Source of the DNA: Methanobrevibacter olleyae
Lineage (GTDB): Archaea; Methanobacteriota; Methanobacteria; Methanobacteriales; Methanobacteriaceae
NCBI RefSeq assembly: GCF_900114585.1
Contig: NZ_FOTL01000004.1
Coordinates: 1-64,000, forward strand
DNA: 64,000 nucleotides
Direction of reading: 5' to 3'
In this document: piece by piece, positions 1,733 through 48,856 of the stretch
Position numbering within the stretch: position 1 is the first letter of the stretch
How the letters are laid out: each line of letters opens with the position of its first letter
Notes under the pieces: generated by a model
Told to the model about the DNA's origin: nothing
Database searches by the model: none
The model's input: only the letters and a program-made list of their open reading frames with translations
Translations under genes and position numbers: made by a program

Positions 1733-2215
1733 TTATAAATCTAGAATAGATCTAAGCTTGAAAATGCCATCATCTTCCTTTACACACATCTTATGAAAAG
1801 TAATAGCTTTAACTTCAGAGCGGCGAGGATGAATATCCCAATTTATTTCCTCACCATAAGCAGAGCAAGTCAATTTATAATTTTCCAAATCAGATGAGTT
1901 TAAATCATCCCCATCATCATTATCCATTTTTTCAATATCAACCTTAAAATCAGAAAAGAACAAGAATTCTGTATCTTGTATGAATAAAAGTTCTTCTAAA
2001 TAATCATACAAAAGAGAAACTAAATCTTCAGAAACTATTTCAAAATCTCTAGACTCTATCTTTTTTACTTTATCAATATCAGTTATTACATTAAACATAG
2101 CTAAACCTGCATTTTCATATGCTTCCTCTAGTGAATTACCATAAGCATAAAATCCAATATCTGCAGTAACATCAAAATAATCATATTTTTTAAAGTTTGA
2201 TTCATCTATTTCCAT
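1733..2215 (-). CDS. Archease, activator of the RNA ligase RtcB
   Basis: This 160-residue protein has the archease fold signature: a D-V-T-A-D-I-G-F motif near residue 15 with the metal-binding aspartate at about 19, the E-A-Y-E-N-A-G helix, and a C-terminal strand ending I-L-D-L. Archease speeds formation of the guanylylated RtcB intermediate and so helps join tRNA exons after intron removal. That job exists here, since the window holds an intron-containing tRNA-Met. The start ATG follows GGTG at usual spacing. An acidic loop (residues about 96-110, rich in D and N) is longer than I would expect. In Methanothermobacter the archease MTH1598 sits beside a Cdc6 gene (MTH1599, from memory), which matches the next minus-strand gene here. 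rtcB itself is not in the window. Confidence 0.88.
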   Translation of the reverse strand: MEIDESNFKKYDYFDVTADIGFYAYGNSLEEAYENAGLAMFNVITDIDKVKKIESRDFEIVSEDLVSLLYDYLEELLFIQDTEFLFFSDFKVDIEKMDNDDGDDLNSSDLENYKLTCSAYGEEINWDIHPRRSEVKAITFHKMCVKEDDGIFKLRSILDL

Positions 2216-2362
2216 AGCTATGCACCAATTTATTATTTAATTTTAATATTATTTAAACTACTTGAAAAAATCAGATGAAAATAGGCTTTGAAATTAAATA
2301 GGCCCTTATTGAATAGGTGAAATCATAGTTACTATTAGTTTTCAAATGCTCTCTTTCTCTTT

Positions 2363-2375
2363 TTTTATATATGCT
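2363..2375 (+). promoter_or_regulatory. TATA box for the small membrane-protein gene
   Basis: TTTTATATATG after a pyrimidine-rich stretch lies about 70 bp before the ATG at 2441. A start about 25 bp downstream gives a leader of roughly 45 nt that contains the strong Shine-Dalgarno. Confidence 0.5.
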
Positions 2376-2440
2376 TTTCAACTTACTATCATTAGCAAGA
2401 GAAATTTAAAGAAAACTTATATTAAAAAAGAGGTGAAAAA

Positions 2441-2629
2441 ATGATAAAAGAGACTAACACCCATTGTGACTTAAGAAGAAAGAATAGCTTCGTAGATCCT
2501 ATGACATTCCATAACCTTAAGATTGATTTTAAAGATTGCATGGTAATATTTGTAGTTTTTACAGTATTGCTTTTATCAATTTTAGCTGTTAGTGCAGCTC
2601 CAAACCCAGAAATGATGATCTGGGTATAA
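2441..2629 (+). CDS. Small single-span membrane or exported peptide (62 aa), unrecognised
   Basis: I do not recognise this family. It looks real: GAGGTGA sits at ideal spacing before the ATG, a TATA box lies about 70 bp upstream, and the frame ends cleanly before a large inverted repeat. Residues 1-32 are polar and charged (three D/E and several K/R). Residues about 33-53 form one hydrophobic helix (MVIFVVFTVLLLSILAV). The helix ends SAA, a signal-peptidase-like site, leaving a nine-residue tail PNPEMMIWV outside. It could be a small membrane protein, a precursor of an exported peptide, or a hydrophobic toxin. An overlapping antisense frame lacks a Shine-Dalgarno and is probably a shadow. Confidence 0.55.
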   Translation: MIKETNTHCDLRRKNSFVDPMTFHNLKIDFKDCMVIFVVFTVLLLSILAVSAAPNPEMMIWV

Positions 2630-2646
2630 TTAAACAATATCAAACC

Positions 2647-2806
2647 AAACCCATTGTTTATTAAAGGATGTAACCATATAAGATAAAGCTACTTATAGAA
2701 CTATGGATATTATCCTGCAATATTAATGATTAAATAGGATTAATCATTGAAATATGATTTTTTATAGTTCTAATTAGATAAATTACATCCTTTAATCAAT
2801 GCGTTT
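2647..2806. repeat. 160-nt long imperfect inverted repeat (structured RNA or MITE-like)
   Basis: The whole element folds on itself. The outer stem pairs AAAC (2647-2650), CATTG (2652-2656) and ATTAAAGGATGTAA (2660-2673) with the reverse complement at 2783-2806, broken only by a C-C mismatch and a TTT bulge. A middle stem pairs AGAACTAT (2697-2704) with ATAGTTCT (2764-2771). The apical stem pairs ATATT plus AATGATTA (2720-2732) with TAATCATT plus AATAT (2741-2755). This lies 18 nt after the small membrane-protein gene. It is far longer than a terminator and has no trailing T-run of note. Confidence 0.8.
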
Positions 2807-3195
2807 ATAAAATTATCCTTTGTAAGTTTATTATTTTTAATTTATCATTTTTAAACACTAAAAACTCGAAACATGATCATCATTTAATCCTTAAACACCA
2901 TACATTAATTTTTACTTCCTTTATTAATTTTTACTTTTTTTACTAATTTATTTATTATACCCTTTATTAACCTTTTGAATAATTTATTTATTAAGGGCTT
3001 CATTAAGTTTTTTAAAACATAAAAACATTTAATTACTTTAAAAGTCTATAAAGAAAGAAAATATTCAAAAATAAGAAAAGGAAAATAAAAAAAGAAAATA
3101 TTCAAGAATAAGAAAAGGAAAATATTCAAAAATAAAAAAAGAAAATATTCAAAAATAAGAAAAGGAAAATGAAAAAATAAATTAGAGCTTAAAAA
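2807..3195. repeat. Gene-free region with A-rich repeats 3' of cdc6
   Basis: The first 240 bp are plain AT-rich DNA. From about 3057 to 3175 a unit GAAAATATTCAAAAATAAG occurs four times (starts 3057, 3094, 3118, 3141), with or without an added GAAAAGGAAAAT. It lies downstream of the minus-strand cdc6 stop, so the transcript would carry repeated T-tracts. A very similar unit recurs 3' of mptE at 4441. Confidence 0.7.
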
Positions 3196-4314
3196 TTAAA
3201 GATTACAGCCCTTAATATCTTCAGGAGCAAACCTTAAAATGATCTCTCTTGAATTGCCCCTAACTCCTTTTCCAGTAAATTTAGTATCAATCAATCTTAA
3301 AAATTCCAATTTTTCAAGAGTTCTATTGAAAGTAGCATAGCTTACATTAGCTTCTTCTTTAAATTGTTTAGATAACTCTCCAGCAGTTAGAATCTCATCA
3401 CTATCAGCAACTGCCTTAAGTAAGGTTCTTTCAATATCATTCAAAGAATTAATAGTTTCCATTAAATTAACAGAGCCCTGTTTAGCTATTGCCTCTTCAA
3501 CATGCTCTAATTCAATAGTCCTGCTTGCATTAGCTTCTGCAATATTACCGCACACCCTAAGAAGATCGATGCCCACTCTTAAATCTCCAACCTCAATAGT
3601 GTGATTAGCAATTTCTTCAACTATCTCATCTGATATTACACTTGGGAAAAATCCTGCCTTAGCCCTGTCTGAGAGAATATCGAATATTTCAGAATATGTG
3701 TATGGTTGGAATGTAATATCTTGAGGAATGAATACGGTGTTAACGTTTTTATCAAGAGCATATCTAAATTCCAAATCTGAAAGAATGGCAAAGATACCAG
3801 TTCTCACTCCTTCAAATTCCTCATAAGCTCTTAAAATATCATAAAATACTTTATTTGCATTTTGACTTTGGAATAAATAATTAACATCGTCAAAAGCAAC
3901 AACCAATGCTTTGTTTTCTTCTCCAAGATATTTCATAACCTTTTCATATACCCTTGAAAAAGGAACTCCTGTCTCAGGAGGTTGATGTCCAAATAGCTTT
4001 TTATGAATTTGAGAAAAGATTCCAAAACGTGTTGTATGTAATTGACAATTAATATAACAACAAACAACTTTATCACTGATGTTTTCTACCAATTCAAAAA
4101 CTTTCTTAATTGCAGTTGTTTTTCCAGTAGCACATGACCCCATAATAACTGAATTAGTAGGACGGCCCCCTTGAATGGCTGGCCTAATACACATAGCCAT
4201 TCCTTCCATTTGACTATCCCTAAAATTAAAATTATCAGGCATATAATCTGGATTAAATGCATTTATGTTTAGGAATAATGTTTCATCAAACATTAAAATA
4301 TCTTCTATTGCCAT
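3196..4314 (-). CDS. cdc6-2: Orc1/Cdc6-type replication initiator (Cdc6-2 type)
   Basis: This is an AAA+ origin-binding and helicase-loading protein of 372 residues. Walker A is GSCATGKT at 59-66, in place of the common GPPGTGKT; Walker B is FDD at 141-143 within VVAFDDVNYL. A sensor/lid region follows. The C-terminal winged helix is at about 295-372, with a stretch reading VSYATFNRTLEKLEFLRL. Members bind origins and load or modulate MCM. Methanobacteriales carry two such proteins, and the neighbouring archease supports the Cdc6-2 assignment by synteny with Methanothermobacter. No Shine-Dalgarno precedes the ATG, and a TATA box sits 25 bp upstream, so the mRNA looks leaderless. I saw no cluster of origin-recognition boxes beside it. 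Confidence 0.85.
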   Translation of the reverse strand: MAIEDILMFDETLFLNINAFNPDYMPDNFNFRDSQMEGMAMCIRPAIQGGRPTNSVIMGSCATGKTTAIKKVFELVENISDKVVCCYINCQLHTTRFGIFSQIHKKLFGHQPPETGVPFSRVYEKVMKYLGEENKALVVAFDDVNYLFQSQNANKVFYDILRAYEEFEGVRTGIFAILSDLEFRYALDKNVNTVFIPQDITFQPYTYSEIFDILSDRAKAGFFPSVISDEIVEEIANHTIEVGDLRVGIDLLRVCGNIAEANASRTIELEHVEEAIAKQGSVNLMETINSLNDIERTLLKAVADSDEILTAGELSKQFKEEANVSYATFNRTLEKLEFLRLIDTKFTGKGVRGNSREIILRFAPEDIKGCNL

Positions 4315-48746: not shown

Positions 48747-48856
48747 GCCGGGGTGGCTCAGCTGGTTAGAGCGCACGGCTCATAGGGTATCAAAGCGTGC
48801 TCTGACTTTTTTCCTGGGATACCGTGAGACCGCGGGTTCGAATCCCGCCCCCGGCA
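48747..48856 (+). tRNA. tRNA-Met (CAT, elongator) with an intron
   Basis: A full cloverleaf is visible. The acceptor GCCGGGG (48747-48753) pairs with CCCCGGC (48849-48855), discriminator A follows, T stem GCGGG/CCCGC with TTCGAAT loop, D arm GGCTCAGCTGGTTAGAGC, anticodon stem CACGG/CCGTG. The anticodon CAT is at 48781-48783. A 36-nt intron interrupts the anticodon loop after position 37. The D-loop and stem fit elongator rather than initiator tRNA-Met. CCA is not encoded directly (the next bases are TCCA). Neighbouring archease and RNase P genes act on such RNAs. Confidence 0.95.
48785..48820 (+). other. Archaeal intron in tRNA-Met (position 37/38)
   Basis: Removing 48785-48820 restores a 7-nt loop CTCATAA between the two halves of the anticodon stem. 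GTATC at 48787-48791 and GATAC at 48818-48822 can pair, as expected near a bulge-helix-bulge site for the splicing endonuclease. Exact cut sites could shift by a base or two. Confidence 0.8.

Follow-up and report, generated by a model that had tools for sequence, protein, structure and literature searches.

Antisense small RNAs, whether cis-encoded or derived from 3′ UTRs, display their antisense segment in a hairpin loop, and a few bacterial cases are known in which pairing between a 3′ UTR and its own mRNA serves as regulation. In the hok/sok system of plasmid R1, the hok mRNA encodes a small membrane protein, adopts metastable, mutually exclusive folds and engages its 3′ end in a long-range blocking fold; central to that system are the Sok RNA and a structured 5′ leader that contains the mok frame (PMC4147584). 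In icaR of Staphylococcus aureus, a short UCCCCUG motif in the 3′ UTR base-pairs with the Shine-Dalgarno region of the same mRNA for control, which gives an RNase III substrate (PMC3868564). The downstream-peptide motif is a conserved RNA structure of the 5′ UTR that accompanies a short ORF of unknown function, and no codon pairing is described for it (PMC2864571).

Here, we report on a locus of Methanobrevibacter olleyae (contig NZ_FOTL01000004.1) within a stretch of 64,000 nt that was analysed as a whole and is referred to below as the window. Like hok, the locus encodes a small membrane protein, and its transcript is predicted to enter mutually exclusive folds, one of them a long-range fold of the 3′ end; unlike hok, its 3′ UTR targets codons in the middle of the coding region, no antitoxin RNA was found, and the gene sits on an archaeal chromosome, vertically inherited beside housekeeping genes rather than plasmid-borne. 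As in icaR, the 3′ UTR would control the mRNA that carries it, but the pairing involves 20-26 bp with codons inside the gene, and in archaea. In contrast to the antisense small RNAs, the arm lies on the strand of its target and apparently in the same transcript, while a conserved structure linked to a short ORF is what the locus shares with the downstream-peptide motif.

Results

A conserved small gene between archease and orc1/cdc6-2

An ORF of 62 codons on the + strand (2441-2629) encodes a member of an unannotated membrane-protein family, with a hydrophilic N-terminus (DLRRK), one hydrophobic helix and PNP near the C-terminus. In the alignment, the family members are mostly 58-66 aa long with a single hydrophobic helix, a trait shared with the small hydrophobic proteins of type I toxin-antitoxin systems. 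Searches of Pfam, NCBIfam and PDB gave no confident match, and the matches of some members to DUF3270 span the hydrophobic helix and are not informative. A single-sequence search found the ORF kept in 95 of 139 family genomes, and a profile search in 116 of 151 genomes of the order, covering 17 of the 19 genera of Methanobacteriales, some of them with weak matches.

The small ORF nearly always lies between archease and orc1/cdc6-2, including in Methanothermobacter-like and Methanothermus-like genomes. In the window, the divergent neighbour is the archease gene (1733-2215, − strand; tRNA-ligase cofactor family; Pfam PF01951, E=4.6e-40), which adjoins the small ORF in nearly all relatives, and the convergent neighbour is an orc1/cdc6-2 homologue (3196-4314, − strand; Pfam Cdc6_lid, E=1e-17) that is 82-92% identical within the genus and has mptE on the same side of the small ORF. 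M. ruminantium M1 carries the second homologue as mru0423 and has its oriC at cdc6-1 (PMC2812497). Upstream of the small ORF, the TATA-like box TTTATATATG (2364-2373, + strand), with a TATA-like stretch in the same region of the relatives, is probably its archaeal promoter, and a predicted ribosome binding site GAGGTGA is read at 2430-2436 (+ strand).

Relatives of the small protein, 51 aa in length, are encoded elsewhere in two genomes (G001:C6, L160; G015:C7, L133), and neither box A (see below) nor archease/orc1 neighbours were found beside them. The window also carries a tRNA gene at 48747-48856 (+ strand; Rfam, 110 bases, 61.9 bits) that ARAGORN missed, probably on account of an intron.

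A single-copy hairpin follows the small gene

A first-pass annotation of this DNA had described a 160-nt inverted repeat at 2647-2806 with stacked stems and AAAC/GTTT tips, and both the sequence and the predicted RNA fold agree with that description. Folded as RNA, the region 2630-2825 has a minimum free energy of -39.5 kcal/mol against a mean of -23.75 (sd 3.28) for its shuffles (z = -4.8), none of 200 shuffles being as stable as the native sequence; the folding energy by itself picks no strand. The outer stem P1 is formed by 14 perfect bp between ATTAAAGGATGTAA (2660-2673, + strand) and TTACATCCTTTAAT (2783-2796, + strand), and is lengthened by CATTG/CAATG and the AAAC/GTTT tips. Inside it, the stem P2 pairs TAGAACTATGGA (2696-2707, + strand) with TTTATAGTTCTA (2761-2772, + strand) and is followed by an apical hairpin.

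The outer stem was found in all 15 same-genus loci examined, identical or nearly so in most, and the predicted stem P1 covaries within the window's genus. In G002 it reads TATTAAAGGATGTGT/ACACATCCTTTAATA, with compensatory changes on both arms; in G009 it is swapped for an unrelated 12-bp stem, GTTGATATAACC/GGTTATATCAAC, in the same position behind box A, which was judged by direct pairing as MAFFT misaligned those arms; and in G012 it is shifted (TGTTTATTAAAGG/CCTTTAATAAACA). P2-like stems around box B (see below) scored above the mean of their own shuffled controls in 71 of 84 genomes. For clade g9, RNAalifold gave no structure, and the pairs of a 9-bp stem are near-invariant, so that the covariation of this short stem is weak and the covariance model built on the g9 element was used as a homology search tool only. 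Rfam, at gathering as well as permissive thresholds, gave no family for the element or for 11 relatives.

A copy-number search returned one copy of the element in its own genome, and clear matches flanked by the same neighbouring genes were present in 13 further genomes of the genus. The covariance model likewise gave a single credible copy in each genome, located at the small ORF, and also recovered copies in genomes and genera outside its training set. Two readings had been offered in the first-pass annotation, a miniature transposon (MITE) and a structured RNA expected to occur once per genome with compensatory base changes. The second is supported by the single copy and the changes in G002 and G009. 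A MITE, which the long inverted repeat might suggest, can be set aside in view of the single copy, the constant archease/small-ORF/orc1 locus in all relatives and the covarying arms. The inverted arms showed no target-site duplication, there being no second copy or empty site by which to place the ends of the element.

Among 15 genomes of the genus (1733-4314 in the window and loci L002-L014), 9 carry the archease/small-ORF/hairpin unit in inverted orientation with respect to orc1/cdc6-2. The element stays with the small ORF in the inverted loci and no longer faces orc1. G013 is inverted and its apparent relative G002 is not, so inversion seems to have occurred more than once. Tandem repeats at 1567-1679 and 3048-3181 (a 37-bp unit present three times; 23/37-bp units) flank the unit, and they are possibly related to its inversions.

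The spacing of 12-15 nt between ORF and hairpin, together with the synteny, suggests that the two are carried on one mRNA, of which the hairpin is likely the 3′ UTR.

The 3′ arm is complementary to codons of the same gene

Two short boxes follow the small ORF. Box A, ACCAAACCC (2644-2652, + strand), lies 5′ of the hairpin, 15 nt past the stop codon, and is present in nearly all carriers with an almost unchanged sequence; box B, TTATCCTGCAA, ends in CATGCAA or similar across carriers. Beyond the genus, boxes A and B persist but the long hairpin does not. When box A was considered as a second antisense site, no partner in the mRNA proved both strong and consistent. Its CCAAACC resembles the complement of a conserved 23S stretch; a role as rRNA guide was dropped, with about 7 nt conserved and the rRNA genes not found in the genomes compared.

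Box B is situated inside an antisense arm (2697-2721, + strand), which overlaps the 5′ arm of P2 and pairs with Asp-Cys-Met-Val-Ile-Phe codons of the small ORF (2535-2560, + strand), with a duplex energy between -20.4 and -24.8 kcal/mol, according to which segment is supplied. That the hairpin is the likely 3′ UTR of a small conserved gene, with an arm antisense to codons of that gene, went beyond what the first-pass annotation could see. In 82 of 84 genomes, the Cys-Met codons are where the arm forms its best duplex, the other two being G048, in which the box was misplaced, and G043, which has Gly for Cys and pairs at the same place. With boxes correctly placed, the Cys-Met-Val site outscores all alternatives within the same coding sequence in 84/84 relatives, with a mean of -26.3 against -11.1 kcal/mol for the other sites.

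Pairing was assigned by lineage from a windowed duplex scan, a scan of whole 3′ regions being uninformative because long loops dominate. It was supported in the window's genus and in g3, g6, g7, g8, g9 and g4/g15, although in g4/g15 the arm may differ in origin since it overlaps the end of orc1 on the other strand. In four genomes (G134, G135, G136 and G022; L216, L164, L163 and L157) the arm shares its sequence with the final codons of the convergent orc1/cdc6 (KCMVQP, stop), so that the same DNA is the C-terminus of one gene and the antisense of its neighbour. At another locus (L071, G017) the antisense arm TTTATGAATATTATCGTGCAATTTTT is present twice 3′ of the small ORF. The windowed scan gave no support for pairing in Methanothermobacter-like, Methanothermus-like and several other genera that keep the small ORF. 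Some lineages therefore keep the ORF without the arm, which indicates that the pairing is not essential to the protein. Beyond the window's genus, it is this predicted codon/3′ pairing that has been conserved, and not the 160-nt hairpin.

Selection on the pairing

To the imperfect positions of the duplex a strand-neutral scoring was applied, which counted 105 G-U and 7 A-C mismatches on the sense strand and therefore argues for an RNA of the sense strand, not for DNA or the opposite strand. Own pairs of arm and codons had a mean duplex energy of -25.1, compared with -20.4 for swapped and -8.9 for shuffled pairs. None of 20000 permutations was as good as the own pairs overall, and within clades the numbers out of 20000 were 0 for g9, 3 for the window's genus and 67 for g3-g8. 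Both-sided changes were found at 20 codon positions of the codon/3′ duplex, one wobble position being U-A in 40, C-G in 15 and A-U in 5 genomes, counts that refer to related sequences and not to independent events.

The codons predicted to pair have lost synonymous freedom. The paired Cys codon is TGC in 89/91 sequences vs a background of 20% TGC in the window's genes, and the paired Ile codons are ATT in 49/49 and ATA in 36/36; a few codons elsewhere in the small ORF also vary little. Most lineages without the antisense arm use TGT. G023 has TGT at the paired position, and its arm carries CCATACAA in place of CCATGCAA. In G096 the usual box B is lost, and a new 25-bp antisense arm is located further on (-31.2 kcal/mol, z = -7.7). 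From these comparisons, it is well supported that the complementarity of the 3′ arm to its own codons has been kept by selection on the RNA. A 3′ UTR complementary to a different part of its own mRNA, and maintained by selection, is one feature of fold-back regulators such as hok and icaR, which the locus would share if both parts lie on one mRNA. The antisense segment was found only on the strand of the small ORF, apparently within its 3′ UTR. The locus is not filed as a type I toxin-antitoxin system, a class defined by toxicity on overexpression and by a separate unstable antisense RNA repressing the toxin mRNA.

Discussion

We consider that the 3′-UTR hairpin folds back on its own coding region and thereby limits the translation or the lifetime of the mRNA, a reading to which we give a probability of roughly 65%. 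As the comparisons show, a segment of 20-26 nt in the likely 3′ UTR is antisense to codons in the middle of the gene, and as the mRNA folds back, the 3′ UTR would cover the codons at which the membrane helix begins. The fold-back is part of the predicted minimum free energy structure in 72 of 84 mRNAs. In the window's species, a nested-fold prediction places the local P1/P2 hairpin ahead by 4 kcal/mol and gives the fold-back a probability of 0.013. Because the antisense arm includes the 5′ arm of P2, hairpin and fold-back are in competition unless a pseudoknot forms, the 3′ arm of P2 rivalling the coding region for the same segment. As judged from the overlapping arms and the energies, the segment may thus be held alternatively in the P1/P2 hairpin in the window's genus, and the choice between the two states would fall to ribosomes occupying the coding region or to co-transcriptional folding. 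It is possible, though we propose it tentatively, that the mRNA is a bistable self-antisense one, with its 3′ UTR either on its own codons or trapped in P1/P2 and with ribosome traffic during transcription setting whether it stays on or off.

The arm might alternatively act in trans, the 3′ UTR being cut out or separately transcribed as a small RNA that is antisense to the mRNA of the small gene. In many relatives a hairpin loop presents the arm, as in antisense RNAs, the G-U bias and the covariation suit pairing in trans as well as in cis, and g8 has an AT-rich TATA-like stretch between the ORF and box A. Against this, only 20-35 nt separate the stop codon from box A in most of g9, which leaves little room for a promoter of its own, and no second target of the arm was found in the window's genome, where 2535-2560 is unique. 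In every case the arm shares both strand and locus with its target, which puts pairing in cis within reach first, and a small RNA acting in trans appears unlikely.

A purely structural role, in which the pairing protects the mRNA, guides its processing or slows ribosomes for insertion of the helix and regulates nothing, is in keeping with two features of the pairing: it spans the codons where the hydrophobic helix begins, and it is the predicted ground state in most species. We regard it as quite improbable, as it leaves unexplained the covarying P1/P2 hairpin that rivals for the same segment in the window's genus. The first-pass annotation had judged the repeat too long for a terminator, and the position of the hairpin between convergent ORFs with T-rich sequence downstream would suit a bidirectional terminator or a spacer; this is very improbable, in that a terminator scan of 2647-2806 found no simple terminator, that is, no short GC-rich hairpin with a T run, that the element no longer faces orc1 in the inverted loci, and that neither the complementarity to distant codons nor the lost synonymous variation is explained. 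A DNA element, whether a replication origin, an Orc1 binding site or a cruciform, is extremely improbable despite the adjoining orc1/cdc6-2 and the AT-rich repeats nearby, for the mismatches are G-U rather than A-C on one strand, inversions carry the element away from orc1 together with the small ORF, and oriC of M. ruminantium M1 is at cdc6-1, not cdc6-2 (PMC2812497).

With fold-back onto its own codons as the preferred reading, the locus differs from the fold-back mRNAs of hok and icaR in its target (codons instead of a leader or ribosome site), in the length of 20-26 bp, in the domain of life and in the depth of conservation. A literature search retrieved no archaeal precedent for such pairing and no report of the small protein, an absence that is no proof.

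The matched changes in codons and 3′ UTR over many genera make the protein-coding and the RNA constraints separable. If the bistable reading were true, the locus would represent a translation-memory switch that Methanobrevibacter and its neighbours have conserved. Through the pairing, a small membrane protein that lacks annotation and is found in the main methane producers of rumen and gut stands out as being under what would be an unusual form of control.
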